Both the position numbers and the translations under genes were made by a program. 39,289 bases of DNA, from positions 1-39,289 of the forward strand of contig JAGWTZ010000030.1 in assembly GCA_028868695.1 (NCBI GenBank), in the 5' to 3' direction. The stretch comes from Alphaproteobacteria bacterium (lineage in GTDB: Bacteria; Pseudomonadota; Alphaproteobacteria; Rhizobiales; Aestuariivirgaceae). The notes beneath the pieces are model-generated. The model ran no database searches and was not told the DNA's origin. It saw nothing but the letters and a program-made list of their open reading frames with translations. How positions within the stretch are numbered: the stretch's first letter is position 1; each line of letters starts with the position of its first letter. This document shows, one piece after another, positions 1 through 27,805 of this stretch.

Positions 1-282
1 GGTGGCATAGGCCTCAAGGCCGCCAATGCGCACGCAGTTCATGATGTATTTGGCGCCGTCAAAGGCCTTGCGCCGGTCTGTCGTGGCCGTCACCTTGGTG
101 GGCAGCTTGTTGGCCGCCACCAGCTTCTCGATGATCTGCCTGATCATGTCGAGGTTGTGCGGGCTGCTGTCGGTCAACGCGATTTCAATATCGGCAAACT
201 CCGGCACGCAGAGAATGTCGCTCACCAGTTTCTTGGTGAAGCCGATGGAGCCTGCGCCAATGATGGCAATCTTGAATGACAT
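1..282 (-). CDS. Glycoside hydrolase family 4 enzyme, N-terminal part (cut by window edge)
   Basis: Only the first 94 codons are present; the gene continues past the left edge. The product begins MSFKIAIIGAGSIGF, the GxGS nucleotide-binding start typical of GH4 enzymes, which use NAD+ and a divalent metal to cleave glycosides by an oxidation/elimination route. The later Cys and His metal ligands would lie outside the window. The ATG at 282 has an AGGAG ribosome site 8-9 nt upstream (within 283-300). It starts 10 bp after the stop of the halogenase-type gene, so it is the last visible gene of the alpha-galactoside operon. It differs clearly in sequence from the MelA at 1822-3198, so it probably acts on a different glycoside or linkage. 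GH4 membership is firm; the substrate (alpha-galactoside, alpha-glucoside or uronide) cannot be told from this piece. Confidence 0.85.
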   Translation of the reverse strand, partial: MSFKIAIIGAGSIGFTKKLVSDILCVPEFADIEIALTDSSPHNLDMIRQIIEKLVAANKLPTKVTATTDRRKAFDGAKYIMNCVRIGGLEAYAT

Positions 283-292
283 GGGTGATCTC

Positions 293-1825
293 CTAAAGTG
301 ATTTCAAAAATTCGCGGTGGCCCATCGCGCGTGGCGCCGCCGCACGGTATTCCGCGGTCAGGCTGTCCGCCGCCGCTTTGGCCTTGGCCCTGAGCGTGGG
401 ATTGGCATCCATGAACTGTTGTGCAAGCGGCCGGTTAAGTAGGCCAAGGCCATCCAGAACGGGGTAATAAAGCTGCTGCTCGGTGTGGGCGAAGTGGCCA
501 GGCAGCGGCGTGAAATCCTCATGGCCTGGCATCTTTCTCTGCCACAGCGCCAGCCGCTCCCGCGTTGCCGGAGAACGGAAATCCGAGGCCACATGCTCCC
601 AGAACGGCGTGTCGCGCCGTTCGCTGACGTAATGCAGATTGATGAAATCCCGGAAGTCATCCACCTGGCGGCCAGCAAAGGCGTTATAGGCGTCGCGGTC
701 CTTGGCGTTGAAATCAACGCCATCTTTCATGTGAAAAGTGGTGAACACCAGCAGTTGCACAATTGTGCCATGGATGGAGGTAGCTTCCAAAGGCTCAAGG
801 AAGCTGGAAGCAAGCCCCAGCGCCAGGCAGTTGCCTATCCACGGTGTTTCCTGGCGGCCAATGTCGAACTTCAAGTCATTGCGGGGCTCAATGCTGCGGC
901 CCAGCGTGGCTTCAATCTCAGCCTTCGCCTCCTCTGGCGTGATGAATGCGTCAGAATAAACATAGCCGCAGCCCATGCGCGCCTGTGTGGGGATCATCCA
1001 CATCCAGCCGGCACCTTGCGCCCAGGCCGTGGTGAATGGTGTGAACTCCGCACCCTCCTCATGCTCCAGCCAAAAGGGCATTGCGCGATTGACGGGCAAA
1101 TGCTCCTTGAAGGACTTCCATTTGCCGCCCATCACCTTGGAAATCAGGCTGCGCCGGAAGCCCGTGCAATCAATGAAGAAATCCCCCGCCACTTCGCCAA
1201 CATCGGTGATCAGCGCGGTGATGTTGCCGCTCGCCGGGTCCCGCCTTGCGCCGCTCACCTCTGCATCTATCATTTCCACGCTGCTGGACTTGCGCCGCAG
1301 ATATTTGCCCACCAGCGCTTGGTCAAAATGATAGGCGTGGTGAAAGGGGCCAAGTGGCACAAGCCCGCCATCTGCCTTGCGCGCGAATGGAGCCTTCTGC
1401 TGGTCCAGCAAATAGGCGAACAGATGCGTGTCGGCCAGCCGCCGCCCCGCAGCGCAGGAGAAGATGTCGATATAGCTTTGCGGGCGCGTGCCCGGCGGCT
1501 CCATCACCAGATGTGGGTCGTCGATCGGGCCATCATAGCTGTGCCCCTTGCGCCGCCAGTCCTTGTGACGGATGCCAAATTTGATTGTGGCCTCGGTTTC
1601 ACGCAAAAACTCAAACTCATCGAAGCCGAAATGCTTCAGCATCTGCCGGAACACGGCCGTGCTGCCCTCGCCCACCCCAATGACCGGGATGCGCGAGGAT
1701 TCCACCACCGTCACGATGGCGTTCATGTTTCTTTTGGCAATCGCCTCCTGCAGCATCAGTGCCGCAAGCCAGCCCGCCGTTCCGCCCCCAACAATCACGA
1801 AATTGTATGGCGCGGCCTCGCTCAT
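293..1825 (-). CDS. Flavin-dependent tryptophan-halogenase family protein
   Basis: The 510-residue product matches the length and motifs of the PF04820 halogenases (PrnA/RebH type), which use FADH2, O2 and halide to chlorinate or brominate electron-rich substrates. The FAD motif GGGTAG is at residues 13-18. The GWMWMIP segment at 273-279 carries the family WxWxIP signature. Lys82, within TIKFG, aligns by context with the catalytic Lys79 of PrnA. Glu347, in EPLEATS, aligns with PrnA Glu346. The active site therefore looks intact. The start overlaps the melA stop by 4 bp (ATGA), which suggests translational coupling. No flavin reductase gene is visible nearby. The setting is unusual, between two GH4 glycosidases in a sugar-uptake operon. 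Related halogenase-like genes are known beside carbohydrate and TonB-receptor genes in other Proteobacteria. The substrate is unknown and might not be tryptophan. Confidence 0.88.
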   Translation of the reverse strand: MSEAAPYNFVIVGGGTAGWLAALMLQEAIAKRNMNAIVTVVESSRIPVIGVGEGSTAVFRQMLKHFGFDEFEFLRETEATIKFGIRHKDWRRKGHSYDGPIDDPHLVMEPPGTRPQSYIDIFSCAAGRRLADTHLFAYLLDQQKAPFARKADGGLVPLGPFHHAYHFDQALVGKYLRRKSSSVEMIDAEVSGARRDPASGNITALITDVGEVAGDFFIDCTGFRRSLISKVMGGKWKSFKEHLPVNRAMPFWLEHEEGAEFTPFTTAWAQGAGWMWMIPTQARMGCGYVYSDAFITPEEAKAEIEATLGRSIEPRNDLKFDIGRQETPWIGNCLALGLASSFLEPLEATSIHGTIVQLLVFTTFHMKDGVDFNAKDRDAYNAFAGRQVDDFRDFINLHYVSERRDTPFWEHVASDFRSPATRERLALWQRKMPGHEDFTPLPGHFAHTEQQLYYPVLDGLGLLNRPLAQQFMDANPTLRAKAKAAADSLTAEYRAAAPRAMGHREFLKSL

Positions 1826-3198
1826 TCGGCTGCTTTCATGCCCTTGGAACCGCGGGCAAACTCCGGCAGCCAGGTGCCATGGGCGGCCAGCAGGTCATCC
1901 ACCAGGTCCCATATCTGCTGCAGGTCCAGCTCTGCGGCCGTATGCGGGTCCATCATCGCGGCGTGATAGATATGCTCGCGCTTTTCCTCGACCAGGGCCC
2001 GGACCGTGAGCTCCTGAACATTGATGTTGGTGCGGATCAGCGCGGTGAGCTGCGGCGGCAAATCGCCCACGAATGTGGGCTGAATGCCCCTGTCATCCAC
2101 CAGACAGGGCACCTCGGCGGCGCATGCCTCAGGAAGCGACGTGATGCAGCCATTGTTGCGCTGGTTGCCATAGATCACGCTGGGCTCACCCGTCCACACC
2201 GAGTTGATGATCGACGAGGCATATTCCTTGGAGGCCTTCACCTCGATCTTCTCGGCGGCCTTGAAGGCATCGGAATCCTTCTTCCAGCGGGCGATCTGCT
2301 CCACGCAGCGCTTGGGATATTCATCCAGCGGAATGCCGAATTTCTCGATCAGGTCTTCCCTGCCCTCCTTGATGAAATAGGGCGTGTACTCCGCAAAATG
2401 CTCCGAGCTTTCGGTGACGAAATAGCCAAGCCGCGCCAGCATTTCATAGCGCACCTTGTTGGGGCAGCGCGGGTTCCAGTGCGATGGCTTGGGGAAACGC
2501 CCCTCACGGTATCCCTTCACCAGGTCGGGATAAAGGCTGCGGTAGCTGCCATCCTTCTGGCGGTGCTCGAACTGCAAGTAGAACGCCATGTGATTGATGC
2601 CGGCCGCACGGTAGCGGATGTCATCCAGCGGAATGTCGAGGTCGCGCGCCAATTCATAGGCCGTGCCCTGCACCGAATGGCACAGGCCAACCTGCCTGAT
2701 CTTCGGGAACTTCTCTGAAATGGCCCAGGTGTTGATGGCCATCGGGTTCACATATTGCAGGAGAATGGCATTCGGGCACACCTCCATCATGTCAGCACAG
2801 ATGTTCCACAAGTGCGGCACGGTGCGAAGCCCGCGCATGATGCCGCCAACGCCCAGCGTGTCGGCGATGGTTTGGCGCAGCTTGTATTTCTTCGGCACCT
2901 CGAAATCGGTCACCGTGCAAGGCTCATAGCCGCCGATCTGGAAGGCCACGACCACGAAATCCGCCTTGTCCAGCGCCTTGCGCTGGTTGGAGTGGGTTTC
3001 CAGCTTGGCCGGGACGCCCAGTGTGGCAATGATCTTGCCAGCAACAATCTCGCTTTCCTTCAGCCGTTCGGCGTTGATGTCCATCAGCGCAATGGTGGCG
3101 CCGCTGGTGGCCTTGCGTTGCAGGATGTCACCAATAATGTTCTTCATGAAAACAGTGGAACCGGCGCCAATAAAGGCAATGCGGGGGTTGGCGGTCAT
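1822..3198 (-). CDS. melA: Alpha-galactosidase, GH4 family (MelA)
   Basis: This 458-residue protein follows E. coli MelA closely along its whole length. Visible segments are FIGAGSTVFMKNI near the N-terminus, FQIGGYEPCTVTDFE at about 86-100, and the metal-binding Cys173-His174 in GLCHSVQGTA. His203 lies in GINHMAFYL, and MMDPHTAAELD is near the C-terminus. Enzymes of this type hydrolyse melibiose and related alpha-galactosides in the cytoplasm using NAD+ and Mn2+. The ATG at 3198 has AGGAG about 7 nt upstream. It lies 9 bp after the transporter ATPase stop and overlaps the halogenase-type gene by 4 bp. A MelR-like regulator and an oligopeptide-type transporter in the same locus fit alpha-galactoside use. 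Family assignment is firm; activity on melibiose versus raffinose-type sugars is inference. Confidence 0.93.
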   Translation of the reverse strand: MTANPRIAFIGAGSTVFMKNIIGDILQRKATSGATIALMDINAERLKESEIVAGKIIATLGVPAKLETHSNQRKALDKADFVVVAFQIGGYEPCTVTDFEVPKKYKLRQTIADTLGVGGIMRGLRTVPHLWNICADMMEVCPNAILLQYVNPMAINTWAISEKFPKIRQVGLCHSVQGTAYELARDLDIPLDDIRYRAAGINHMAFYLQFEHRQKDGSYRSLYPDLVKGYREGRFPKPSHWNPRCPNKVRYEMLARLGYFVTESSEHFAEYTPYFIKEGREDLIEKFGIPLDEYPKRCVEQIARWKKDSDAFKAAEKIEVKASKEYASSIINSVWTGEPSVIYGNQRNNGCITSLPEACAAEVPCLVDDRGIQPTFVGDLPPQLTALIRTNINVQELTVRALVEEKREHIYHAAMMDPHTAAELDLQQIWDLVDDLLAAHGTWLPEFARGSKGMKAAE

Positions 3199-3207
3199 GT
3201 GTTTCTC

Positions 3208-4830
3208 CTATGCGGCGATGTCAAAGGCGGCGCGCACCAGGCGCCGCGTGTAGTCGGTCTTTGGGCTCTCAAGCACGTCGGCCACTGGCCCCTGCTCGAC
3301 GATCTTGCCATGCTGCATGACGATGACGCGGTGGCAGAGTGCACGCACCACTTTCAGGTCATGGCTGATGAACAGGTATGAAAGCCCGCGCTCGCGCTGC
3401 AGCTTGCGCAACAGCTCGATGATTTGGGCCTGCACCGAAAGATCAAGCGCCGAGGTTGGTTCATCCAGCAGGATGAACTCCGGCTCCAGCGCGATCGCCC
3501 GGGCAATGGCCAGGCGCTGGCGCTGCCCACCAGAGAATTCATGTGGAAAGCGTGTGAGAATGCTGGTGGGCATACCGGAATCTTCCAGCGCCTTCTGCAC
3601 GCGTTGCAAGCGTTCGGCAGCGCCGCCGCCCAGGCCATTGACGATCATGCCTTCTTCGATGATTTGCCGCACATTCATGCGCGGGTTCATCGACGAAAAC
3701 GGGTCCTGGAACACGATCTGCATGCGGCAGCGGAAGGGCCGAAGCTCCTGCCGCGAAAGCCCGTCGATGCGCGCGCCGGCAAAAGTGATGGTGCCTTCCT
3801 GCGGGTTCAGCAGGCGGATCAGCGCCTGGCCGAATGTTGTTTTGCCAGAACCTGACTCACCCACCAGACCCAGCGTTTCGCCGCGCTTGAGCGCGAGACT
3901 AAGGCCATCCACAGCGTGCAGGTCGGAATAGGTGGCATTGAAGAAGCCGCCCTTGCGCAAGGTGTAGGTGACGCGAACCTTGTCACCGGAAAGGATGACC
4001 GGGTGCTCGCCTTCCAGCGGCTTGGCCACGCCCTTGGGGTCAGAAGCCAGCAGGCGCTTGGTGTAGGCATGTTGCGGGTTGGCAAACAAGGTGGCCGTGG
4101 CGTTGTGCTCTTTCACTTCGCCATGTTGCATCACATAAACGCGGTCGGCGAATTGGCGCACCACGGTGAGGTCGTGGGTGATGAGGATCACCGCCATGCC
4201 ATATTTGGCCTTGAGATCCTTGATCAGGTTCAGGATTTGCGCCTGAACTGTCACGTCCAGCGCCGTGGTCGGCTCATCGGCGATCAGTATGTCCGGCCGG
4301 TTGGCCAAGGCCATGGCGATCATCACGCGCTGCCGCTGGCCGCCGGAAAGCTGGTGCGGATATTGCTTGAGGCGCGCCTCCGGCTCGGGAATTTGCACCT
4401 CTTCCAAAAGCGCCTTGGCGCGGGCCAAGGCCTCGGCGCGCGACACTTTGTTGTGGATGCGGATCACCTCTGAAATCTGCGCTCCAACCGTGTAGAGAGG
4501 GTTGAGCGAGGTCATCGGCTCCTGGAAAATCATCGACACGCGGCTGCCGCGCAGCTTGCGCATTTCATGCTCGGTGAGCGCCAGGACATCCTGCCCGCCC
4601 ATGGTGATGCTTGAACCCTTGCCTATGCTGGCGCGGCGCGACAGCAGGCGCATCACTGCCCGCGCCGTGACCGATTTGCCGGAGCCGGATTCGCCAACGA
4701 TGGCAATTGTCTCACCCTTGCACAGCGCGAAGGAAACATCACGCACCGCCTTCACCTCCCCGCCTTCCACCTTGAAGGTGACGGCGAGGTTGCGGGCCTC
4801 AAGGATGATGTTGCTCTGGGTTTCTGCCAT
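3208..4830 (-). CDS. Fused double-ATPase subunit of an oligopeptide/alpha-galactoside-type ABC transporter
   Basis: About 540 residues carry two complete nucleotide-binding domains in one chain, as in YejF or GsiA. Walker A motifs GESGSGKS (46-53) and GESGSGKT (324-331) and signatures LSGGQ (161-165) and FSGGQ (432-436) are visible. Walker B with DEPTTALD and DEPTSALD is present in both halves. Each half ends in the short extension typical of Opp/Dpp ATPases. It should energise the two permeases encoded just upstream. An in-frame TTG at 4842 would overlap the permease stop, but the ATG at 4830 is preferred because GAGG lies about 7 nt before it. The family is known for peptides, yet in rhizobia the AgpA-type systems of this family import alpha-galactosides. 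The neighbouring melA favours that substrate. Confidence 0.92.
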
Positions 4831-4838
4831 CACGCGCC

Positions 4839-5990
4839 TCAATAGGGATCAATGGCATCGCGCAGGCCATCACCCAGCGCGTTGAATGCAAACACCGCCA
4901 GCAGCACAAAGCCCACCGGCGAGAGAATCCATGGGTAAGACCCCAAAACCGAGAAGTTGCCGCAATCCTGAAGCATCATGCCCCATGAAATCAGCGGCGG
5001 CTTCACGGCAAAGCCCAGGAAGCCAAGGAAGGATTCAATCAGGATGATGGCGGGAATCCAGATCGTCACCGCAACAATCACATGGCTGAGCACATTGGGC
5101 AGGATGTGCCGGAATATGATGCGGCCATCCCCAGCCCCCACAGCCTGCGCCGCGCGGACATATTCAATGCGCGCCAGAGCCAGAGTCTTGCCGCGCACCT
5201 CGCGCGACAGCTGCGCCCAGCTCACGGTGGTGAGCACCGCGATGAGAAATGTGAAGAACACCCAGTTTGGCGCGGTGACGGGAATGACGCTGGCCAAGGC
5301 CAGGTAAAGCGGCAATTGCGGGAAGGCCAACACGATTTCCACAAAGCGCTGCACCCAGGAATCGAACCTGCCGCCGACATAGCCTGAGATCAGGCCCACG
5401 CTGGTGCCGATCAGTGTGAGCAGCGCCACGGTGGTGAGCGAAATGAACAAGGTGATGCGCGAGCCCGACACGCCGCGCGAGAAGATGTCACGGCCAAACT
5501 TGTCAGTGCCAAGAATGTGAAAATGCGAGCCATCATCAGTGCCAAACAAGTGAACACTGGCGGGGATGAGGCCTAGCAGCTTGTAGGGATAGCCCTGCAC
5601 GAGAAACTTGATTGGGTGGGGGTGGTCATAGTCCGGGCCTGTGAGCGGCTGGAAGGTGATCGGGTCAAGTTCGCCGCCCTCGACGATCTGATAGGCGTTG
5701 AGCCGCAGGCCATAGCCTTCCTTGGTTGCAAAGCTCATCGGGTCCGGCGGCGCAAAGGCGAGGTAAGGTTCCTTGGGGTCAAGCGGCGACACAAAATCGG
5801 CAAACAAGGCCATCAGCAGCAGCAAAACAACAAGCGAGAGCCCGATCATGCCGGTGACAGAGCGGCGGAACTTCCGCCACACCAACGTGACATAGGCCTC
5901 GCTCTTGGCAAAACGCGCCGCACCCGGCGTGCTGTCGAGATAGCCAGCGTCCTCGGCCTTCACAAAGGGAGCGAACAGGTCCGCGCTCAT
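4839..5990 (-). CDS. DppC/OppC-type ABC permease
   Basis: The protein has 383 residues, longer than the roughly 300 of E. coli DppC. Extra length lies in an N-terminal cytoplasmic stretch of about 40 residues and in an extracytoplasmic loop of about 90 residues between the first and second membrane spans. That loop is rich in Pro, Asp and Gly. The ATPase-docking EAA region is seen as [17 protein letters not shown] followed by [12 protein letters not shown]. About six membrane spans are expected. The start overlaps the stop of the DppB-type permease by ATGA at 5987-5990, and GAGG precedes the ATG. It forms the transmembrane pore with that partner. The substrate is inferred as alpha-galactosides from the operon. 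Confidence 0.92.
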
Positions 5991-6991
5991 GCCTCGCCCC
6001 CCAGACGGATGCGCGGGTCAAGCCAGGCCAGCAGCATGTCCGAAATGATGCCGCCCACAATCAGCGTGGCACCCAAAATCAGAAGGAAAGTTGCAGTCAC
6101 CAGCACGTCACCGATGCTCATCGAGCCGACAATGGCCGGGCCAACGGTGGGGATGCCGAAAATGATCGCCGTCTCGATTTCGCCTTGCATCATGTAAGGC
6201 AGGATCACGCCCTGATAGGCCACCAGCGGATGCAGTGCATTGGGCACCGCGTGCTTCATGATGGTGGCCGAACTGGAAAGGCCCTTGGCGCGCGCTGTTT
6301 CGACATATTGCGCGTTCAGCGTGTCCAGCAGGTTGCCGCGCATCACGCGCATGTTGTAGGCCAGACCGCCAATGGTGGCCACCGCGATGATCGGCCAGAC
6401 ATGCTGCACCAGGTTCCAGAACTTGGCGAAGCTCATCGGCTGATAGGTGTAGTAGCTTGAATAGAACGAGCCAAGCTCCTGCACATTCAGCTTGAAGGCC
6501 AGAATGTAAATGATGATCAGTGCCATCAGGAAGCGCGGAATGGTCATGCCGAGGAAAGTGAACACCGACAGCAGCGTATCCACCCAGCTGTATTGCCGCG
6601 TGGCCGCAAGAATGCCGAGGCTGATGCCAATCATTGACGCGAAGAAGTGGCACGTGAGAGCGATGGCGAGCGTGATGGGCAGCCGCTGCCACACCACCTC
6701 GGAAATCGGCCGGTTGTAGTAATAGCTCGTGCCGAAATCCCCCACCAGAAAGCCTTTGATCCAGCGGAAATATTGGATGACGAGCGGGTCATTAAGCCCA
6801 TGTTCAATGCGGAACTGCTCAGCCGCGGCCAGCGCCACGTCATTGGACGCATGGCCCTGCACGCGAAGCTGCTGCGCAAAATAGTCGGCATAGTCACCCG
6901 GCGTGGCGTGAATGATGGCGAAGGTCACCACACTCATCACAAACAGCACGGGGATGGCCGCCAATATGCGATAGGCCAGATAGCGCAGCAT
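5987..6991 (-). CDS. DppB/OppB-type ABC permease
   Basis: This 334-residue inner-membrane protein starts MLRYLAYRILAAIPVLF, a first span typical of DppB permeases. It keeps the family segment IHATPGD after the first span. The EAA loop for the ATPase reads YVETARAKGLSSSATIMKHA. About six spans are visible. The ATG at 6991 has a GAGGA ribosome site about 5 nt upstream. It follows the solute-binding-protein gene after a 94-bp gap that contains a stem-loop, and it overlaps the next permease by 4 bp. Its role is half of the import channel of the alpha-galactoside-type transporter. Confidence 0.93.
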   Translation of the reverse strand: MLRYLAYRILAAIPVLFVMSVVTFAIIHATPGDYADYFAQQLRVQGHASNDVALAAAEQFRIEHGLNDPLVIQYFRWIKGFLVGDFGTSYYYNRPISEVVWQRLPITLAIALTCHFFASMIGISLGILAATRQYSWVDTLLSVFTFLGMTIPRFLMALIIIYILAFKLNVQELGSFYSSYYTYQPMSFAKFWNLVQHVWPIIAVATIGGLAYNMRVMRGNLLDTLNAQYVETARAKGLSSSATIMKHAVPNALHPLVAYQGVILPYMMQGEIETAIIFGIPTVGPAIVGSMSIGDVLVTATFLLILGATLIVGGIISDMLLAWLDPRIRLGGEA

Positions 6992-7012
6992 GGGTCCTCA
7001 GGGGATGGGAAC

Positions 7013-7074
7013 GCCGCCCCCGGTTCCACCATGCCTCCAGGGAGAAGAAGGCACGGCAGCCGGCCGGGGGCGGC
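7013..7074 (-). other. Stem-loop between binding-protein and permease genes
   Basis: A perfect 11-bp inverted repeat (GCCGCCCCCGG at 7013-7023, complement at 7064-7074) encloses a loop. Inside it, TGCCT (7032-7036) and AGGCA (7049-7053) can form an inner stem. There is no T-run after it on the minus strand, so it is not a classical intrinsic terminator. Its place right after the binding-protein stop suggests an mRNA-stabilising or partly terminating element that keeps the binding protein more abundant than the permeases. Confidence 0.6.
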
Positions 7075-7085
7075 CAAGGGTGGTT

Positions 7086-9173
7086 TTACTTCACGAGGCC
7101 TTCACCAGGCGCGGAGCCCGGCTTGCCAGGCAACGTGTCGGGGAACAGCTCATATTTCTGCTGCTTGTCGGCCGCCACATACACACGCTCGCGGATGATG
7201 TTGTCTTCCGCCCAGTTGTACATGAAGATCGGGGCACCCGGCGCCACGTTGGAGAAGCGCTTGTTGATGATGAGAGCACCCGGATAAACCGTGAGACCCG
7301 CCGTATAAACGTTCTCGGTTGCGGTCTTCTGGAATTGCTTCATCAACTCAATGCGGTCCTTGGCTTCCTTGGCACCGATGAACTTGTTGACGGTGTCCAC
7401 AAGCTGCTGCTCGAAGTCCATCAGGTCCACCTTGCCGTCCGCGCCTGCCTTGTGGAAGTCAGTCGTGTTCGGGCCAATCGGCGCCAGATGGTCGGTGTTC
7501 TGCACCGCGGTGATCACTTCCGAGCCTTGGCGCAGCACCGACCAGTCGAACTTGCCCGCATCGCGGGCAGCGTCATGGTCCTTGCCAGAAAGCAGCTTGG
7601 GGATGACCTTCAGGCCAACCTTTTCGCCCATGGCCACAATGCCTTCCACCAGAGACTTGTCGGACTGGTAGTCAGCATTGCCCAGAACCGTGATCTCGAC
7701 GTTCTTGCCGCCATTCACATCCTTCGGGAAGTTCAGGATGCCATCCCCATCCGTGTCCTTGAGCCCGGCAGCAGCAAGTTCTGCCTTGGCCGCTTCGACA
7801 TTGTAGGGATAGTAGACGGTGGAGGCCTTGTCATAGAAGCTGGTGCCCGGATAGATGCCGCCGGGATAGATGGCCGTGAACGGCCCCTTCACCAGCGATT
7901 CACCCAAGCGCTGACGATCGAGCATCGACGTCACGGCCTTGCGGAAGTGCAGATCGCGGTTCAACTTGTGAACGCCAACGCTGCGGTCATCCGTGTCGCC
8001 CCAGCCATTGGCGGAATAGTTGAACTGCAAGGCATAGCCGATGGTGCGCTGGCCGAATTCGAGGCGGGCCGGAGCGGCGGCGTCAGCCGACTTCTTCAGG
8101 CTTTCCACATAGTTTTCAGCCTGTTCAAGGTTGGAGAAGTCGCCCGTGCCGGCCACCGCCTGCACGTCGCGGTCCGCCCAGGTCGAGAGGCGATACTGCA
8201 ATTCGTTCAGGTAAGGCAGCTGGTTGCCCTTCTCATCCACCTTCCAATAATAGGGGTTGCGGCGCAGCACCACGATGTTGTCCGGCTTGTGGTCAACCAC
8301 AACCCAGCCGCCCATGGTGGGCATCGCCATATAGCTCGGCGGGAAGGCATTCTTGTATTGGTCGTAGGTGTTCTTGGAATTTGCCGGATGCTGCGGCGCC
8401 AGGATATGCGCCGGGCCGGGGCAGAACGTGCCATAGGCCATGGCATAGAGCACCTGTGTGGGGAAGGCGTTCTTGAACGTCCACTTGATGGTGTTGGCAT
8501 CCACCTTTTCCAGCGTGGTGCCTTCGCCGAAGGTGCCGGGGTTGGCGCCGTTCAGCGGATGCACATTGGTGTCGAGAACGTTCTTTTCCCAATAGAACAT
8601 CACGTCATCGGCCGAGAAGGGCTCGCCGTCTGACCACTTGGCGCCCTCAATCAGGTGCATGGTGAGCTGCTTGCCATCAGCAGACCAATCCCAGCTCTTG
8701 GCCAGGTTCGGCAACGGCTGCAGCTCTTCGGCCTTCACCTGGAACAGCGGGCCAGTGCGCGTCAGGCATTCCTGCAGGCCGATGTCGATGCCGCCCCAGC
8801 CCTGGCTTTGGCCAGCCCAATAATTCCAGCCCTCCGGCCGGCCGCCGATCACATGGCGCATCACGTCACCATAGACGCCAATGCCGTCTTTCATGTTGCC
8901 GGTCTTGTAGATCATCGGCTCTTTCGGCAGGCGGTCTTTCAGGGCCGGCAGCTTGCCAGCCTTTTCCAGCGCCTTCACGAAGTCCGGCTCGTTATAGGCG
9001 GGCAGCGCGCCATAGGTGAGAATGTCACCCACGCCCACCAGCGTTACCTTGCCTTGCGCATCGAACTTTGGCGGATCGGGCAATTGGCCGGGGGCAGCCC
9101 CATCAGCCAAGGCAGCCGAGGCCGAAACCCCAAGCGCCAGCATTGCGGCCATAAGGCCTGTGATTGTCTTCAT
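7086..9173 (-). CDS. Family-5 (oligopeptide-type) periplasmic solute-binding protein, likely for alpha-galactosides
   Basis: The product has 695 residues. A signal peptide is clear: MKTITGLMAAMLALGVSASA, with likely cleavage after ALA before DGAAPGQ. The mature protein has features of SBP_bac_5, such as LAKSWDWSADGKQLTMHLI, GAKWSDGEPFSADDVMFYW and DLHFRKAVTSMLDRQRL. At about 695 residues it belongs to the longer members of the family. The ATG at 9173 is chosen because GGGAGGAA lies just upstream and the signal peptide begins there; the open frame runs further upstream without a ribosome site. It is the first gene of the operon and divergent from the MelR-like regulator. Rhizobial AgpA, which binds melibiose and raffinose, belongs to this family, so alpha-galactoside binding is inferred from context. 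Confidence 0.92.
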   Translation of the reverse strand: MKTITGLMAAMLALGVSASAALADGAAPGQLPDPPKFDAQGKVTLVGVGDILTYGALPAYNEPDFVKALEKAGKLPALKDRLPKEPMIYKTGNMKDGIGVYGDVMRHVIGGRPEGWNYWAGQSQGWGGIDIGLQECLTRTGPLFQVKAEELQPLPNLAKSWDWSADGKQLTMHLIEGAKWSDGEPFSADDVMFYWEKNVLDTNVHPLNGANPGTFGEGTTLEKVDANTIKWTFKNAFPTQVLYAMAYGTFCPGPAHILAPQHPANSKNTYDQYKNAFPPSYMAMPTMGGWVVVDHKPDNIVVLRRNPYYWKVDEKGNQLPYLNELQYRLSTWADRDVQAVAGTGDFSNLEQAENYVESLKKSADAAAPARLEFGQRTIGYALQFNYSANGWGDTDDRSVGVHKLNRDLHFRKAVTSMLDRQRLGESLVKGPFTAIYPGGIYPGTSFYDKASTVYYPYNVEAAKAELAAAGLKDTDGDGILNFPKDVNGGKNVEITVLGNADYQSDKSLVEGIVAMGEKVGLKVIPKLLSGKDHDAARDAGKFDWSVLRQGSEVITAVQNTDHLAPIGPNTTDFHKAGADGKVDLMDFEQQLVDTVNKFIGAKEAKDRIELMKQFQKTATENVYTAGLTVYPGALIINKRFSNVAPGAPIFMYNWAEDNIIRERVYVAADKQQKYELFPDTLPGKPGSAPGEGLVK

Positions 9174-9308
9174 CGAATTCCTCCCAGAATCTGTTGTGCG
9201 GAGTTCTTTGTGGCTCCGGAGATTCAAGTTCGTGCAAATCCCCGCTTGCGGCAATCCCGTTTCCCAAATAAGAATTCCGGGTTTTTAAGATTGCTGGCAA
9301 AGCTCCTC
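9174..9308. promoter_or_regulatory. Divergent control region of the alpha-galactoside operon and its AraC-type regulator
   Basis: This 135-bp gap separates the two divergent starts. It contains a direct repeat, GCAAATCCCCG (9234-9244) and GCAATCCCG (9251-9259), spaced 17 bp start to start. That spacing would suit tandem half-sites for an AraC-family dimer. No confident -35/-10 pair was picked out for either strand. Assignment of the repeat as the regulator site is inference. Confidence 0.4.
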
Positions 9309-10208
9309 ATGGCGACGAAATCCGACAAGACTGGCGCGAGCGCCCTTACGGAGCGGCCCTTCTACCGCCGCAGCAAAGCCTTCGGCCGTTTCGGCATGCG
9401 CATTTTCAAGCCGCAAATCATGGCGGATCCTCACTGGCACGGGCACATCGAGGCGAATTTCGTGCGCCACGCCAGTCTGCTCTACAATGTTGATGGCACG
9501 CCAGTGACTGTGCAACCCGGCCAATTGGTCATCTTCTGGGCCAATGTTCCGCACCAGTTGCTGGAGATTCCACAAATAGGCGAACAGGACGCCGAACTCT
9601 GCAACATCTACATTCCGCTCGATGCCTTCCTGATGATGCCGCATCTGGCCGAATTCCAGATTGCCCTGCTCAATGGCGCGATGATCGCCTGCCCGCCGGA
9701 ACTGTGCAGCCGCGAACAGATCCAGCGTTGGTACCAGGACTATCGCTCTGCCGATGCAGCACGCCTCGATCTGATGAAGATGGAGTTGAACGCCTTGTTC
9801 CGCCGCCTGTCGCTGGAGCCGCCAAACTACCTGCGCGCACCATGGCTGGCCAACAAGCGCAAGCACGATCTCTCCTCCTCCCACATCCGCCATGTGGTGG
9901 CCATGGTTCAGCACATATTGGAGAACATCAGTGGCGCGCTGCGCAACGCCGATGTGACGGCCAAGACCGGCCTTCACCCCAACTATGCACTGGCCATCTT
10001 CACCAAGGTGATGAACATTCCGCTGAAACAGTTCATTCTGCGCATGCGCCTGCTGCGCGCCCGCGGGCTGCTGCTTGAGAGCGACCTGGCCATTTCCAAA
10101 GTTGCGGAAGAAAGCGGCTTTGGCTCCACCAGCCAGTTCTATTCGCATTTCTCCTCGGCCTATGGTGTCTCGCCCAGCAAGCTGCGCGAGAAATATCTGG
10201 CGTCCTGA
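9309..10208 (+). CDS. MelR-like AraC-family transcriptional regulator
   Basis: The 299-residue protein resembles E. coli MelR (302 residues) from end to end. The N-terminal cupin-like sensor has DPHWHGHIEANF and LVIFWANVPHQL, close to MelR's HWHGQVEVN and ITLFWACTPHQL. The C-terminal double helix-turn-helix has LHPNYALAIFTKVM and a second helix pair ending GFGSTSQFYSHFSSAYGVSP. MelR activates melibiose genes when the sugar is bound. The ATG at 9309 is preferred because the MelR-like region begins soon after it; the longer open frame upstream runs over the divergent binding-protein gene. Divergent placement beside the transporter and melA operon fits a local activator. No strong ribosome site is visible. 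Confidence 0.88.
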   Translation: MATKSDKTGASALTERPFYRRSKAFGRFGMRIFKPQIMADPHWHGHIEANFVRHASLLYNVDGTPVTVQPGQLVIFWANVPHQLLEIPQIGEQDAELCNIYIPLDAFLMMPHLAEFQIALLNGAMIACPPELCSREQIQRWYQDYRSADAARLDLMKMELNALFRRLSLEPPNYLRAPWLANKRKHDLSSSHIRHVVAMVQHILENISGALRNADVTAKTGLHPNYALAIFTKVMNIPLKQFILRMRLLRARGLLLESDLAISKVAEESGFGSTSQFYSHFSSAYGVSPSKLREKYLAS

Positions 10209-10261
10209 TTTGCTGGGGCGGAATGGGCAGATGAGGCATCCAATGAAAGGCCGAATGGCAC

Positions 10262-11401
10262 ATGGCTGAGATTGAATTAAAAACCCGGGATTTTCTCAGC
10301 GCTGCACAGGCAGAAGCCCTCTTTGATTTTGAACCGGTCGGCGCTTCGCTGCATGAGTTGGAAACACCCGTCCCCATCATTGATTTCGACGTGATGCTGG
10401 CCAATCTCATCCGCTGGCAAATGCATTGCGACCGGCTGGGCATTGCCAACTGGCCGCACATCAAAACCCACAAGCTGGTGCCCATGGCCAAGCTGCAGAT
10501 TGCCCTCGGCGCTGCGGGCCTTTGCGTGCAAAAACTGGGCGAGGCGGAGGTGATGGCCGCAGCCGGCCTGCATGATATGCTGCTCACTTTCAATGTGGTG
10601 GGCGAAAGCAAGGTCAGGCGCCTTGCGGCAGTGATGCGCAATACAAATATCGCGGTGGTGGCTGACAACGAGACAATGTTGGCTGGGCTCGCCGATGCCG
10701 CCAAGAGCGCTGGGCGCAAGCTTGAGGTGCTGGTGGAGTGTGACACTGGCCTTGGCCGCAACGGCGTACAAACACCCGCTGCAGCTCTGGCCCTTGCGCA
10801 AGCCATCGCCAGTTCTTCCCACCTCACATTTGGCGGGCTGATGACCTATCCGCCGGCCTTCAAGCGCCAACAGGTGGCAAGCTTCATCGCAAGCGCCAAG
10901 GAACTTTTGCAAAAGGCGGGCGTTCCTTGCCCGCGCGTCAGTTCCGGCGGCTCCAAGGATTTGTGGGACGACGCTGGTCTCGCGGATGTCACGGAATACC
11001 GCGCCGGTACCTACATCTACAATGACCGCCAGATGGTGGCGGCGAAATCCTGCACTTTCGCGCAATGCGCTGAGCATGTTCTGGCCACCGTTGTCAGTGT
11101 GCCCACGGCGGGCCGCGCCATCATCGACGCAGGCTCAAAGGCTCTCACCAGTGATCTGGGCGGCGTTGATGGCTATGGCGTGGTGCCAGAGCTTGGGTTC
11201 GCCAAAATCTATGCGGTGAATGAAGAGCACGGCTATCTCGACATCAGCGCCGCGCCACGCCGGCCCAAGGTGGGCGAGCGCGTCAAAATCGTCATGAACC
11301 ACACCTGCCCGGTCAACAATCTGTTCGACAAGGTGGTGTTTGGGCGCGGCGATCGCGTGCTGGGCGCCATCAAGATCGATGCGCGTGGCAAGGTGCAGTG
11401 A
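10262..11401 (+). CDS. PLP-dependent fold-III enzyme of the D-serine dehydratase / D-threonine aldolase type
   Basis: The 379-residue product has the alanine-racemase-type barrel start: TPVPIIDFDVMLANL, then HIKTHK at 66-71, with Lys68 the likely PLP lysine. Later come ECDTGLGRNGV and EYRAGTYIYND. A C-terminal metal site reads MNHTCPVNN, giving His347 and Cys349. His-x-Cys is the zinc ligand pair of eukaryotic-type D-serine dehydratases, whereas characterised D-threonine aldolases have His-x-Asp. Both families share the rest of the fold, so the reaction (D-serine deamination or beta-hydroxy-D-amino-acid cleavage) is open. It starts 53 bp after the MelR-like gene on the same strand and converges on the serine hydrolase. 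The ribosome site is weak. A link to alpha-galactosides is not evident. Confidence 0.82.
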   Translation: MAEIELKTRDFLSAAQAEALFDFEPVGASLHELETPVPIIDFDVMLANLIRWQMHCDRLGIANWPHIKTHKLVPMAKLQIALGAAGLCVQKLGEAEVMAAAGLHDMLLTFNVVGESKVRRLAAVMRNTNIAVVADNETMLAGLADAAKSAGRKLEVLVECDTGLGRNGVQTPAAALALAQAIASSSHLTFGGLMTYPPAFKRQQVASFIASAKELLQKAGVPCPRVSSGGSKDLWDDAGLADVTEYRAGTYIYNDRQMVAAKSCTFAQCAEHVLATVVSVPTAGRAIIDAGSKALTSDLGGVDGYGVVPELGFAKIYAVNEEHGYLDISAAPRRPKVGERVKIVMNHTCPVNNLFDKVVFGRGDRVLGAIKIDARGKVQ

Positions 11402-12699: not shown

Positions 12700-13734
12700 T
12701 CAGCCCTTCAGCTTGGTCCAGATCTTGTTGTAGATCTCAATCACCGCCGGGTCGCAGGGCGGCACGAACTCAGGCGTCGGCGCGCCCTTCGGCAGGTGCA
12801 GTTCCGGCGCATCGGCAAAGTCCTTCGGCAGCGCCGCAAGGCCATTGGTGATGCCGTTGTCATAGCCGGCGAATTCCGAAATCAGCGCGGCGTTCTCCGG
12901 GTCCATCACGAAGTTCTGGAAGGCCTTGGCATTGTCCATGTTCTTGGCGCCCTTCAGCACGGCGACATTGTCCATCCAGCCTTCGATGCCCTCCTTCGGG
13001 AAGGCGAATTTCACGGTGGGCATCTTCTGGCGCATGCGGTAGGCCGCACCATTCCAGGTCTGTGTGACGATCACGTCGCCGGATGTCATCTTGGTGATGG
13101 TGTCATAGCTGAAAGTCTTCCAATTGGGCTTGGCGGCCATCAGCGCATCGCTCACCTTCTTCAGGTTTTCCTTGTCAGCGCCGCAGCGCGGCACGCCAAC
13201 ATAACGCTCAGCGGCATGGGTGAGCGAGTTCGAGTCATCAAGCACATTGATCTGCCCCTTCAATTCCGCGGGTGGGTTGAAGAGAATGGCCAGCGTGTCA
13301 ATGTCGCCCTTGTACTTGGCCGTATCCACCGCGAAGTTGGTCATGCCATATTGCCAGGGAACGGAATAATGCCGGCCCGAATCCCAATACACATCCACAA
13401 ATTCCGGGCGCATGTTCTTGAAGTTGGCCATGGTGTTGGGCTCGGTCTTCTCGAGCAGGCCATCGGCAACCATGATCTTCACGGTGTAGTCAGACGGAAC
13501 CACAATGTCATAGCCGGAATTGCCGGCCCGCACCTTCGACAGCATGGTCTCGTTGGAATCATAGGAATCCAATGTGACTTTCACGTTGAATTGCTTTTCA
13601 AACTTTTCGATCAGCTTGGGGTTGGTGTAGTCACCCCAGTTGTAGATGTGCAGTTCGCCGTCGGCCAGCGCGTGCCCGGCGGCAAACATCAGCGCCGTTC
13701 CCGCGGCTGCCAATTTCAAGATGGTCTTCAACAT
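12700..13734 (-). CDS. potD: Polyamine-binding periplasmic protein (PotD/PotF type)
   Basis: This 344-residue exported protein has a signal peptide (MLKTILKLAAAGTALMFAAG, cleavage after ALA before DGEL). The mature start is typical of polyamine binders: LHIYNWGDYTNP, then DSYDSNETMLSKV, then YDIVVPSDY. Later PWQYGMTNFAVD and WNGAAYRMRQ also fit. It should bind putrescine or spermidine in the periplasm and hand it to PotB and PotC. The ATG at 13734 has CAGGAGAG upstream; an in-frame start 33 bp earlier would overlap potC but lacks the signal-peptide context. It is the last transporter gene, followed by a terminator. Which polyamine is bound cannot be read from the sequence. Confidence 0.92.
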   Translation of the reverse strand: MLKTILKLAAAGTALMFAAGHALADGELHIYNWGDYTNPKLIEKFEKQFNVKVTLDSYDSNETMLSKVRAGNSGYDIVVPSDYTVKIMVADGLLEKTEPNTMANFKNMRPEFVDVYWDSGRHYSVPWQYGMTNFAVDTAKYKGDIDTLAILFNPPAELKGQINVLDDSNSLTHAAERYVGVPRCGADKENLKKVSDALMAAKPNWKTFSYDTITKMTSGDVIVTQTWNGAAYRMRQKMPTVKFAFPKEGIEGWMDNVAVLKGAKNMDNAKAFQNFVMDPENAALISEFAGYDNGITNGLAALPKDFADAPELHLPKGAPTPEFVPPCDPAVIEIYNKIWTKLKG

Positions 13735-13763
13735 GGTCGTCTCTCCTGGTTGTGGTTTTAGTT

Positions 13764-14576
13764 TCATTTGCGCTTGCGTGCGATCAGGAACGAAATGATG
13801 ATGAAGCTGATCGAAAACAGCAGCAAAACAGCAGATATGGCGTTGATTTCCGGCGTCATCGGCCGGCGCGTCTGGTCCCAGATGTAAAGGGGCAGCGTGG
13901 TCTGCCCCGGCCCGGCCACAAGCTGGGTGATGGTGAAATCATCGAAGGACACGATGAAGGCCAGCGCGGCACCTGAGGCAATGCCCGGCACAAGCAGCGG
14001 AAACGTCACGCGCCTGAATGCCTGCCAAGGCGTGGCATAGAGATCAGCGGCGGCGTTCTCCAAGGTGAGGTCCATGTCCTCAAGCCTGGCCCGGATGGGC
14101 ATGAAGGCGAAGGGAATGCAGAATACACAATGCGCGAGCATGATGTTGCCAATGCCAAAGTTCAGCCCAAGCCCCTTGGCCAGCAAGGCAAAGAACGAAA
14201 GCGTGGCCACGGCGGTGATGATCTCCGGCACCATCAAGGGCAAGTTGATGATCATGAACGCCATCCGCATGCCCGGCCAGGCCTTCACCCGCGTCATGCC
14301 GATGGCCGCCAGCGTGGCCGTGACGGTTGAAACCAGTGTGGCCACAATCGAAATCATGAAGGTGTTGCGCGCCGCGGATTGGAAATCCTGGTTGGCCAGC
14401 GCAACGCCAAACCAGCGCAGGCTCACGCCCTCCCAATGCATCATCAGGTTTCCGGCATTGAATGCAAAAATGATCAAGACCAGAATGGGGGTATAAAGCA
14501 TCGCCAGGCACAAGATCGCCACGGCCTTGAAGCCGGGCTGCGTCTTGATATCAACTGACGCATTCACCTTATTCAT
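13764..14576 (-). CDS. potC: Polyamine ABC permease PotC/PotI type
   Basis: This 270-residue inner-membrane protein has about six spans. The cytoplasmic EAA loop reads LENAAADLYATPWQAF followed by RRVTFPLLVPGIASG. The segment SFDDFTITQLVAGPG is typical of PotC/PotI permeases. It overlaps the end of potB by 8 bp (14569-14576), consistent with coupled translation. It forms the polyamine channel with PotB and is energised by PotA. Confidence 0.92.
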   Translation of the reverse strand: MNKVNASVDIKTQPGFKAVAILCLAMLYTPILVLIIFAFNAGNLMMHWEGVSLRWFGVALANQDFQSAARNTFMISIVATLVSTVTATLAAIGMTRVKAWPGMRMAFMIINLPLMVPEIITAVATLSFFALLAKGLGLNFGIGNIMLAHCVFCIPFAFMPIRARLEDMDLTLENAAADLYATPWQAFRRVTFPLLVPGIASGAALAFIVSFDDFTITQLVAGPGQTTLPLYIWDQTRRPMTPEINAISAVLLLFSISFIIISFLIARKRK

Positions 14577-15498
14577 GATGCATCTTGCCCGAGGAGTTGC
14601 GCACGTAGAAGAACAGCGCCACCATCACCGCCGCCATCAGGATCAAGGCTTGCGCGGCACCCAGCGGCCAATTCCGGCCGGAGCCGAATTGCTGCGCGAT
14701 AAGGTCGCCGATCATCAGGTGCAGGCCACCGCCAAGAATGAGTGGCGTGACATAGGCGCCAATGGCGGGGATCAAAACCAGCAGGCAGCCCGCAACGATG
14801 CCGGGCTTTGCCAGCGGGATGATGATGCGCCACAGCACGCGGCGCTTGTCGGCATAAAGATCAAAGCCCGCCTCCACCAGCCGGAAGTCAAGCTTTTCAA
14901 GGCTTGAATACAGCGGCAGGACCATGAATGGCAGGTAGGAATAGAGCAGCCCCAGCACGATGGCAAAATTTGTGTAAAGCATGGTGATGGGCTTGTCGAT
15001 CACATGCCAGTTCATCAAGACTGTGTTGATCACCCCTTCATCGCGGATGATAAACATGATGGCCAGCGTGCGCACCAGAAGGTTGGACCAGAATGGGATC
15101 GTGATCAGCAAAACCCACCAGCTGCGCTGCTCCGGCGGCCGCGTGGCCATGAAATAGGCCGTGGGAAAACCGATGATCAGGCAAACGGCTGTGGTCACCA
15201 CTGCAAAGATCACCGAGCGCAAGTAGATGAAGAGATAGTCTGGCGAGAACTGCAGCGTGTCATCGAAGATGTCCCGCTGGAAGAGGAAGTTCAGATAGGC
15301 GTCGGTGGAGAATTTCCACTCCACGCCGCCATAGGGCGCCGCCTTCAGGAACGAATAGACCAGGATGACCAGCAATGGCCCGATGCCAAACAGCGTGATG
15401 ATCAGCAGTGAGGGCATGGCCAGCAACTGGTGGCGCCGCGCCGCATTTTTCTGGGAGGCCAGGGCGATCTCTGCAGCTTTGCTCACCGGCTCCGCCAT
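14569..15498 (-). CDS. potB: Polyamine ABC permease PotB/PotH type
   Basis: The product has about 309 residues with six likely spans. The EAA loop is seen as LVEAGFDLYADKRRVLWRII, and the family segment LVRTLAIMFIIRDEGVIN precedes it. The ATG at 15498 is preferred over a TTG at 15504, because AAGGA lies 7-8 nt before the ATG. The start sits 2 bp after the potA stop. Its partner is PotC, with which it overlaps by 8 bp. Confidence 0.92.
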   Translation of the reverse strand: MAEPVSKAAEIALASQKNAARRHQLLAMPSLLIITLFGIGPLLVILVYSFLKAAPYGGVEWKFSTDAYLNFLFQRDIFDDTLQFSPDYLFIYLRSVIFAVVTTAVCLIIGFPTAYFMATRPPEQRSWWVLLITIPFWSNLLVRTLAIMFIIRDEGVINTVLMNWHVIDKPITMLYTNFAIVLGLLYSYLPFMVLPLYSSLEKLDFRLVEAGFDLYADKRRVLWRIIIPLAKPGIVAGCLLVLIPAIGAYVTPLILGGGLHLMIGDLIAQQFGSGRNWPLGAAQALILMAAVMVALFFYVRNSSGKMHHE

Positions 15499-15500
15499 CT

Positions 15501-16601
<1,101 letters not shown>

Positions 16602-16692
16602 CACCCCTCAACCCGGCACATTCATCCTAGATCGGCAAAACAAAAATCCACAAGCCGAAAACGATTGGTCCAGATGTCCAAATCGGGCATCA

Positions 16693-17577
16693 TCAACCAT
16701 CGCGCCGCGTTCTGCCGTCCAAAGTCATCAACGCTCCATAGATTTCCGGCCGCCTGTCCCGGAACAGGCCCCAACTGCGCCGCAGCGCGCCAATTTCATC
16801 AAGGTCGAAACTTTGCAGGCGATAGCCTTCCTCAGCGCGGTCCATCTCCTGCAGCTTCTCGCCCTGAAAATCCGCAATGAAGGAACGGCCATAGAATATG
16901 TCGCTGCGGCCATCAGGCGCAGTCTCACGTCCCACGCGGTTTGAGGCCAAAACCGGCATGATATTTGCCGCCGCATGCCCCCGCATGACATTTTGCCAGT
17001 GGCTGCTGGAATCATAGGCAGGGTTCGGCGGCTCCGAGCCGATGGCCGTGGGATAGAGCAAGAATTCCGCCCCCATCAGCGCCATGGCGCGGGCGCATTC
17101 AGGAAACCATTGGTCCCAGCAGATGCCGAGGCCCAATGTGCCAACCGCGGTCTCCCACACCTTGAAGCCAGTATCGCCCGGCGAGAAATAGAACTTCTCC
17201 TGATAGCCGCGCCCATCAGGAATGTGTGATTTGCGGTAAAACCCAAGCTGCCGGCCGTCGGCATCGGCAATCACCGTGGTATTGTAATGCGCCTGCCCCG
17301 CCCTCTCAAAAACGCTGATGGGCAGAACCACGCCAATCTCTTTGGCGAGTGCGGCAAAGCGCTTCACCGTTGGGTGCCGGTCCAGCTCCACGGCCTGCGA
17401 AAGAAACCGCGCGTGCTGCTCGATGCAGAAATAATCGGCATCGAAAAGCTCTTGCAGCAACACCAGCTGTGCACCCTCAGCCACCGCAGCGCGCACCAGG
17501 CTTTCAGCCTTGTCGCAATTCTTCTTCCAGTCATTCTGGGAAGCCATCTGGGTGATGGCGAGCGTCACCCGCCGCAC
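16693..17577 (-). CDS. aguB: N-carbamoylputrescine amidase (AguB), nitrilase superfamily
   Basis: This 294-residue cytoplasmic enzyme has the nitrilase Glu-Lys-Cys triad: Glu43 in LLQELFDADYF, Lys116 in FYRKSHIPDG and Cys153 in GICWDQWFPE. These segments and the full length fit AguB, which releases putrescine, CO2 and ammonia from N-carbamoylputrescine. In the usual arginine-decarboxylase route AguB works after agmatine deiminase (AguA), which is not in the window. Here AguB sits between an acetylpolyamine deacetylase (29 bp upstream) and the Pot importer. It therefore probably serves salvage of modified putrescine. Confidence 0.92.
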   Translation of the reverse strand: MRRVTLAITQMASQNDWKKNCDKAESLVRAAVAEGAQLVLLQELFDADYFCIEQHARFLSQAVELDRHPTVKRFAALAKEIGVVLPISVFERAGQAHYNTTVIADADGRQLGFYRKSHIPDGRGYQEKFYFSPGDTGFKVWETAVGTLGLGICWDQWFPECARAMALMGAEFLLYPTAIGSEPPNPAYDSSSHWQNVMRGHAAANIMPVLASNRVGRETAPDGRSDIFYGRSFIADFQGEKLQEMDRAEEGYRLQSFDLDEIGALRRSWGLFRDRRPEIYGALMTLDGRTRRDG

Positions 17578-17606
17578 TTCAAACTCCTCCCGGCAAGAAG
17601 CGGCGT

Positions 17607-18635: not shown

Positions 18636-18808
18636 GCTTCTCTCCGCTGCGTGGCTGAAACTATGCCCAAGGCAATTTCCGCCAGCAAGGGCAGTCACCC
18701 GCAATTTGTGCAGCCAGTTATGCGGATTTGATTTGTCCTGCACCCATTCGGCCTTGCGGCGCCTTGCACCAAGCGACTAGGTTTTCAGGATTGCTGCAGG
18801 AAAATCTC
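18636..18808. promoter_or_regulatory. Divergent promoter region between polyamine operon and YtcJ-type gene
   Basis: A 173-bp non-coding gap lies between two divergent starts, so it must hold promoters for both transcription units. I saw ribosome sites at both ends (GGAGAG for the minus gene, AGGAAA for the plus gene). I found no convincing palindrome or -35/-10 pair. Confidence 0.45.
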
Positions 18809-21712: not shown

Positions 21713-21745
21713 GGCGCCCCGGAACGGTGCATTGGGAGGTAAGAC

Positions 21746-23056: not shown

Positions 23057-23065
23057 TCTGGCGCC

Positions 23066-23119
23066 AGTTCACGCCGCACCGCGGGGAGCCTATGCTGCCC
23101 GCGGTGCATGGACTGAACT
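23066..23119 (+). other. Stem-loop between binding-protein and permease genes
   Basis: A perfect 10-bp stem GCACCGCGGG (23076-23085) and CCCGCGGTGC (23098-23107) has a 12-nt loop. An outer pairing AGTTCA (23066-23071) with TGAACT (23114-23119) extends it. No T-run follows, so it is more likely an mRNA-stabilising or attenuating element than a full terminator. It matches the position of the hairpin at 7013-7074. Confidence 0.65.
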
Positions 23120-23137
23120 TTCGGGAACGGTGGGAAA

Positions 23138-26642: not shown

Positions 26643-26698
26643 TTTGAATGAAGCCGCGTGCCGGCGGTTCCGGCACGATTTTGAAATGGACACTGGCC

Positions 26699-27766: not shown

Positions 27767-27805
27767 TTGCCGGGCCGCCGCTAACCAATTGAAATACAGG
27801 GAAAA

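Follow-up and report, generated by a model that had tools for sequence, protein, structure and literature searches.

The window, by which we denote the whole stretch of 39,289 nucleotides of alphaproteobacterial DNA analyzed here, carries close to its first base a gene for a flavin-dependent halogenase family protein (PF04820; 293..1825, minus strand). The gene encodes 510 amino acids from an ATG start without an internal stop, and its product scores 352 bits against the Pfam model (E=5e-105; cut-off 21). Its start overlaps by 4 bp a gene for a GH4 alpha-galactosidase (GH4a; 1822..3198, minus strand), which scores 676 against the cut-off of 486 for the NCBIfam alpha-galactosidase PRK15076, and its stop (293) is separated by 10 bases from the ATG (282) of a second GH4 gene (GH4b; 1..282, minus strand). 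GH4b is cut by the contig edge after its first 94 codons because the window starts at base 1 of contig C92, and longer relatives of it are present at other loci (L005 and L095-L098). Beyond GH4a, and on the same strand, Pfam matches identify the double ATPase of a peptide/oligosaccharide-type ABC importer (ABC_tran; 3208..4842), inner-membrane permeases of the OppC (4839..5990) and OppB (5987..6991) types (both BPD_transp_1) and an AgpA-like periplasmic binding protein (SBP_bac_5; 7086..9173), followed by a divergent AraC-type regulator (cupin and HTH_18; 9300..10208, plus strand, start approximate). A signal peptide was recognized by eye in the binding protein and none was seen in the halogenase. 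The arrangement put forward in a preliminary description of this DNA, an intact halogenase gene coupled to one GH4 gene and lying 10 bp from another within an ABC sugar operon, is hence confirmed.

A consensus scan of positions 1-10300 returned no excess of promoter-like sites (1 vs 2.7 expected from shuffles) or of terminator-like sites (9 vs 8.5). Elsewhere in the same genome, two partial PF04820 matches of 22 bits and of 19 bits (25 with its neighbours), both flagged over the cut-off of 21, are presumably other FAD proteins.

Relationship to the agp operon of S. meliloti

The alpha-galactoside genes of the S. meliloti pSymB replicon, where agpT, melA and the genes downstream are described as needed for the use of sugars such as melibiose and raffinose (PMC4254191), run in the order AraC regulator, GH4, binding protein, two permeases, ATPase and GH4. 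The window presents an AraC gene, an AgpA-like SBP_bac_5 protein, two permeases, a double ATPase and GH4 in the S. meliloti order, and the proteins common to both systems (the AgpA-like protein, 66% identical, the two permeases, the double ATPase and the two GH4 enzymes) share 65-85% identity. Judged by these sequences, the ABC sugar operon of the window is of the agp (melibiose/raffinose) type and, by analogy, would take up melibiose or raffinose.

The two operons differ in several respects. The S. meliloti agp/mel operon has no halogenase and places its second GH4 gene upstream of the binding protein, whereas in the window the halogenase lies between the two GH4 genes. Both have a divergent AraC gene, but that of S. 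meliloti is of another type, its best match (44%, L102) being the second AraC type of these loci, which adjoins GH4b in Devosia. The GH4 gene coupled to the halogenase had been named melA in the preliminary description; its identity as a GH4 gene stands and the name does not, for it is closest to the S. meliloti GH4 downstream of the importer genes (85%), and the melA of PMC4254191 corresponds by gene order to the second, truncated GH4 (74% for the full-length relative in L005). Eight rhizobial-type operons (L101, L102, L104 and L121-L125) showed no halogenase in the stretch read. In S. meliloti (L102), phenylacetate-degradation (paa) genes at 13047-15631 start about 1 kb after the agp operon, which is without a halogenase.

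Two more uptake clusters lie farther along the window. Positions 12700-18743 hold an ABC importer (SBP_bac_8, two permeases and an ATPase), then a carbon-nitrogen hydrolase and a histone-deacetylase-fold gene, a cluster that we would guess to serve polyamine use. Positions 20687-29667 hold a LacI regulator, an SBP_bac_8 binding protein, two permeases, a MalK-type ATPase and a phosphodiesterase/sulfatase-fold gene; this second uptake cluster is unrelated to the agp-type one.

Conservation of the halogenase locus

A pattern-seeded scan of one genome per species, covering 84,980 species, yielded 53 loci. The halogenases of 51 of them are 50-77% identical to that of the window, and the remaining two (Rugamonas and Duganella, 31-35%) belong to another group. 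Together with loci from the window's own genus, from its order and from one plasmid, and with same-genome repeats removed, a set of 67 loci was obtained, the window included. Within the stretch read, a GH4 gene is present in 57/67 of these loci and an AgpA-like protein in 50/67. A same-strand GH4 gene lies within 150 bp of the halogenase in 31 loci and within 1,600 bp in 48, and the order GH4-halogenase-GH4 seen in the window (where the second GH4 is cut) recurs in 12 other loci, and is therefore far from chance. Neither GH4 nor an AgpA-like protein appears in the stretch read of ten loci, nine of which (all but L053) have an AgpA-like protein elsewhere in the genome. The preliminary description would have been refuted by an arrangement unique to this strain; the arrangement is instead widely conserved, and a strain-specific accident is ruled out by its recurrence across the scanned species, the family and the order.

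The hosts comprise Devosiaceae and other Hyphomicrobiales, Rhodobacterales, a Robiginitomaculum MAG, a MAG labelled Oceanospirillaceae and two Trueperaceae (Deinococcota). In the tree, the latter fall among the Rhodobacterales, a placement suggestive of gene transfer.

The genes next to the halogenase vary among hosts. In several Rhodobacterales loci (L033, L035, L037, L042, L045 and L046), the genes after the halogenase encode a dehydratase, an SDR, 2-keto-3-deoxygalactonokinase (DGOK) and its (KDPGal) aldolase, or a subset of these; GH42 follows in L027, L033, L034, L042 and L052, and GH36 lies between the ATPase and GH4 in L035, L037 and L048. In L049, galT, galK and galE (GalT/GalK/GalE) adjoin the halogenase instead. 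That two different galactose pathways occur beside one gene speaks for a galactoside rather than an aromatic ring. In Devosia, the majority of the loci with linked genes have GH4b and then the halogenase, with the second AraC gene divergent. Among about 50 annotated neighbour proteins, a set that leaves aside most single-locus ORFs, there is no aromatic-degradation gene and, in the relatives of a window whose own contig ends beside the halogenase locus, no biosynthetic partner set; nor is there a flavin reductase among the annotated neighbours. In several Devosiaceae, small ribbon-helix-helix, ParE-type or HTH genes occur between the second GH4 and the halogenase (L009-L012 and L054 at ~9.3-9.9 kb; L010, L013, L018 and L047 at ~8.9-9.9 kb), as if toxin-antitoxin-like pairs inserted there.

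Co-occurrence with the AgpA-like importer

Within the window's own family (69 genomes), the halogenase was found in six genomes and the AgpA-like protein (E<=1e-100) in seven, the halogenase going with the importer in six of the seven importer genomes; in the seventh (G020), the operon runs off the end of its 8.2-kb contig. GH4a (E<=1e-60) is more widespread, occurring in 15 genomes, nine of which have neither halogenase nor AgpA-like protein (G011 with a fragment only). Four loci of the window's genus (L092, L093, L094 and L099, from G001, G034, G036 and G028) hold a GH4a about 80% identical to that of the window, with no AgpA-like protein and no halogenase.

Across the order (397 genomes), the halogenase (E<1e-190) is present in 24 genomes, all of them within the 58 that carry an AgpA-like protein (E<=1e-150), and the remaining 34 have the AgpA-like protein without the halogenase (Fisher p=7e-23, a value that ignores kinship). 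Nine more genomes hold distant halogenases of 29-34% identity. In three members of the family of the Devosia matches (f6; G355, G225 and G388), a distance of 350-450 kb separates the halogenase gene from the AgpA-like gene. Twenty loci had no AgpA-like protein in the stretch read; for 14 of them the genome was searched, together with G559, and the protein was found in 13 of these 15 genomes, while the remaining six loci belong to genomes that carry it according to the order sample. The two without it are G834 (Trueperaceae), which has neither AgpA-like protein nor GH4a despite its halogenase, and G831 (Limimaricola sp., L046), whose only GH4a match is truncated, starting at residue 116, and where the halogenase and galactose genes remain in what looks like a decaying operon. 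In a class sample (389 genomes, 255 genera), only the window's own genome and G559 reached E<=1e-100, and in the latter (L154) GH4b, binding protein, permeases, ATPase and halogenase stand in a row. In this 1.6-Mb alphaproteobacterial genome, PhyH-type dioxygenase genes (4341-5168 and 16533-17264) flank the agp-halogenase operon, and a PhyH gene is also found near the halogenase locus of L012.

On a binding-protein tree of 73 labelled rows, built by a quick method without bootstrap, halogenase presence changes nine times, seven of them forced by starred branches. Binding proteins with and without the halogenase are interleaved, and sister pairs such as G428/G294 differ; there is therefore no obvious change of importer specificity where the halogenase is present, and the idea of a changed specificity in halogenase strains finds no support. 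In these data, the halogenase is an accessory that goes with agp, and not the reverse.

Catalytic residues and putative substrate pocket

Family residues were read from an alignment of 71 rows (68 distinct) against 17 outgroup rows. The window protein has the flavin-dependent halogenase fold over its whole length, with the FAD motif GxGxxG at residues 13-18. The halogenase motif WxWxIP, Lys82 and Glu347 are found at the positions given in the preliminary description: W274, W276 and I278 are present in 71/71 family rows and P279 in 70/71, Lys82 in 70/70 readable rows and Glu347 in 71/71. In PrnA, the catalytic Lys and Glu are K79 and E346 (residue roles as given in PMC5945002). Ser350, after the catalytic Glu, is found in 9/17 outgroup rows as well.

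The residues that grip the substrate in tryptophan halogenases, whose groups A and B and Trp motifs are defined in PMC8269204, present a different picture. At the Trp2 site, the window reads GPIDD (99-103) in place of the H-x-F clamp, and G99-P100-I/L101-D102 is found in 71/71 family rows, against His in 17/17 and Phe in 16/17 outgroup rows; the Phe is present in all 34 characterized enzymes of Table 1, section 8, of PMC8269204. Loss of the clamp Phe is not unique to the agp-associated family, because outgroup row L145 is also without it. At Trp1 (AT[IVF][PS]) the window reads STAV and the eight family rows displayed read [ST]T[ASG], with Thr56 in 64/65 family rows vs the I/V of Trp1 in all seven outgroup rows. 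Comparison of eight family rows reveals PLGP in the window where group B has the Q-x-x-Q of Trp3, and no Trp4 string of group A or B. Eleven residues invariant in 65 rows (His87, Gly99, Asp102, Gly127, His134, His162, Gln169, Trp236, Phe251, Trp252 and Arg315; Asp102 in 71/71) are changed or gapped in all seven outgroup rows, and L154 (46% identity) deviates from the family at the putative pocket-side positions 162, 163 and 169. With pocket positions taken from the motifs in the literature rather than from model geometry, the putative pocket is without the aromatic-gripping residues of studied relatives, and the enzyme therefore probably acts on something quite different from their substrates.

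The dN/dS of the halogenase is 0.04-0.08 in two close pairs. Within the window's genus, where dS is saturated or nearly so, the dN of the halogenase is about 1.7-2.5 times that of GH4a. The view that the gene is no decayed bystander holds up: decay is ruled out by the open frame, the conserved residues and the dN/dS of the two close pairs.

A separate family among halogenases

The 70 family rows in the tree form one clade (100/100 support, stem of 2.12 changes per column) apart from 17 outgroup rows, four actinobacterial and 13 proteobacterial. We know of no activity for any member of this family. Its nearest solved relatives are the tryptophan 5-halogenases PyrH and AbeH of group B, 32% identical to the window protein, which has lost their Trp1, Trp2 and Trp3 motifs and resides in a catabolic sugar operon, whereas the PyrH/AbeH type resides in a biosynthetic cluster. 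The group C enzymes BrvH (HPFGL) and Xcc4156 (HSFGH) retain H-x-F; the window protein falls outside the BrvH type by its loss of H-x-F and by its own clade, in a tree that leaves BrvH out. BrvH and Xcc4156 have open active sites, for which their authors suggest larger substrates, possibly peptides in the case of Xcc4156 (PMC5945002, PMC7336383). The relatives that were opened adjoin TonB receptors, whereas the window family goes with an ABC importer.

All seven annotated proteobacterial loci of distant halogenases that were opened (L055, L056, L105 and L143-L146), chosen as high-scoring matches and not at random, adjoin TonB receptors and glycosidases; L149 lacks annotation, and the assignment of L056 relied on the gene clusters it has in common with L055. 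The glycosidase families involved presumably indicate starch, beta-glucan, xylan or sucrose-type glycans. The distant halogenase genes of L143 and L144 each share 4 bp with the glycosidase gene that comes next, and L105 has four halogenase genes in a row. Three actinobacterial distant halogenases (L142, L147 and L148) do not lie with TonB receptors or glycosidases, and L148 adjoins an NRPS-type gene. The link of distant halogenases to quite different glycans is a hint that the role may not depend on one particular sugar, and glycan loci may be a common home of the halogenase fold in Proteobacteria.

Among the literature matches listed, with preprints and most subscription journals outside the scope, no paper describes a halogenase encoded within an operon for alpha-galactosides or for ABC-type sugar uptake. 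An entry labelled 'TH' from Devosia psychrophila, the species in which family member L022 occurs, appears in the available part of PMC6644159 as a 36% database match given without context; PMC11337851, as far as its text was available, deals with phage and Colwellia transcripts, and the word halogenase is absent from the available text of PMC1790865.

Discussion

The evidence supports the view that an intact, selected halogenase-fold gene belongs to the alpha-galactoside operon, and this halogenase-like enzyme, whose kind is usually associated with the synthesis of chlorinated or brominated aromatics, is a recurring extra part of bacterial alpha-galactoside gene sets. As read from sequence and model, the fold, the catalytic residues, the single clade, the operon, the co-occurrence and the loss of the indole clamp can be regarded as established. 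Beyond them, we give about even chances to the proposal that the gene encodes a catalytically complete halogenase-fold enzyme of a separate family, acting as an optional part of agp-type alpha-galactoside use on a polar, non-indole substrate of the importer or the GH4 enzymes. Its site of action would be the cytosol, where reduced FAD from a general flavin reductase would react with O2 and the resulting flavin hydroperoxide would either make HOX or transfer oxygen directly. Lys82 and Glu347 would then deliver HOX or oxygen to the substrate, bound by the conserved GPIDD/His-rich putative pocket. This substrate would enter by the agp-type importer or be made by the GH4 alpha-galactosidases, the candidates being an alpha-galactoside, its keto intermediate or a polar aglycone, and its modification would let the cell use, or detoxify, a minor alpha-galactoside beyond the reach of plain hydrolysis. 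A role in minor alpha-galactosides would explain why the halogenase needs agp while agp does without the halogenase. The enzyme retains its catalytic residues and has lost the aromatic clamp, and its gene goes along with a single uptake system. The simplest account is a polar substrate supplied by that system, and the alternatives of a modified protein, a signal compound or an aromatic aglycone appear less likely. A more specific version, which we consider less likely than not, has a carbohydrate-directed flavin halogenase or oxygenase bring HOX or flavin-peroxide chemistry to an alpha-galactoside, a GH4 keto-sugar or a polar aglycone in a catabolic pathway. To our knowledge, it would be the first enzyme of the halogenase fold with a non-aromatic natural substrate and a sugar-eating role.

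The preliminary description had offered two possible roles, the modification of an aromatic aglycone and another flavin oxidation, the latter of which may still apply. An ordinary aromatic halogenase, its target a phenol- or indole-type aglycone freed from an imported alpha-galactoside or still attached to it, would be in keeping with the retained catalytic motifs, with tryptophan 5-halogenases as nearest solved relatives and with the open sites for larger substrates in BrvH and Xcc4156 (PMC5945002, PMC7336383). Nonetheless, the His and Phe of Trp2 (the clamp in all 71 rows), the last two positions of Trp1 and the Q-x-x-Q of Trp3 are all gone, galactose catabolism adjoins the gene in several loci and no aromatic-degradation gene figures among the annotated neighbours of the halogenase loci, all of which count against this role and make it unlikely. 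The same open sites, and the peptides suggested for Xcc4156 (PMC5945002, PMC7336383), would also suit an enzyme that acts on a protein or peptide component of the uptake machinery, such as an aromatic residue of the binding protein, a permease or a glycosidase, much as MibH does with a peptide. The related enzymes beside TonB receptors at loci for different glycans, where such machinery, rather than the sugar, may be the common partner, and the fact that the halogenase was never found without an AgpA-like protein in the 397 genomes of the order sample argue in the same direction. However, closely related importers do without the halogenase in sister strains, and the association persists across a change to an importer type of 41-47% identity, so that we consider protein modification rather improbable.

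Equally doubtful is the production, off the catabolic route, of a halogenated signal or growth inhibitor co-induced with sugar use, as in competition on a shared sugar. The gain and loss of the gene between sister strains suits such an accessory trait, and a gene for a LysE-type exporter lies downstream of the halogenase, at most 120 bp away and on the same strand, in 9/67 loci (L009, L011, L012, L016, L039, L054, L109, L110 and L120). However, LysE was not found beside the halogenase at this distance in the other 58 loci, and it also lies between GH4a and GH4b in two agp loci with no halogenase nearby (L137 and L138), which weakens the case for LysE as a dedicated product exporter; likewise, no other biosynthetic gene is conserved beside the halogenase among the annotated clusters.

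For flavin-dependent halogenases of this type, the reported activities are on aromatic rings, and BrvH and Xcc4156, which are relatives from outside biosynthetic clusters, have no known natural substrate. In the present case, operon structure and co-occurrence across genomes link one clade to a single type of uptake system whose biochemistry is known. The hosts of this clade include Devosia and roseobacters that can be cultured, and sister strains with and without the halogenase gene exist. The candidate substrates are thereby few, and the function of a catabolic 'halogenase' becomes accessible to direct genetic testing. If the substrate does prove to be a sugar derivative, the chemistry of the halogenase fold would be wider than thought.
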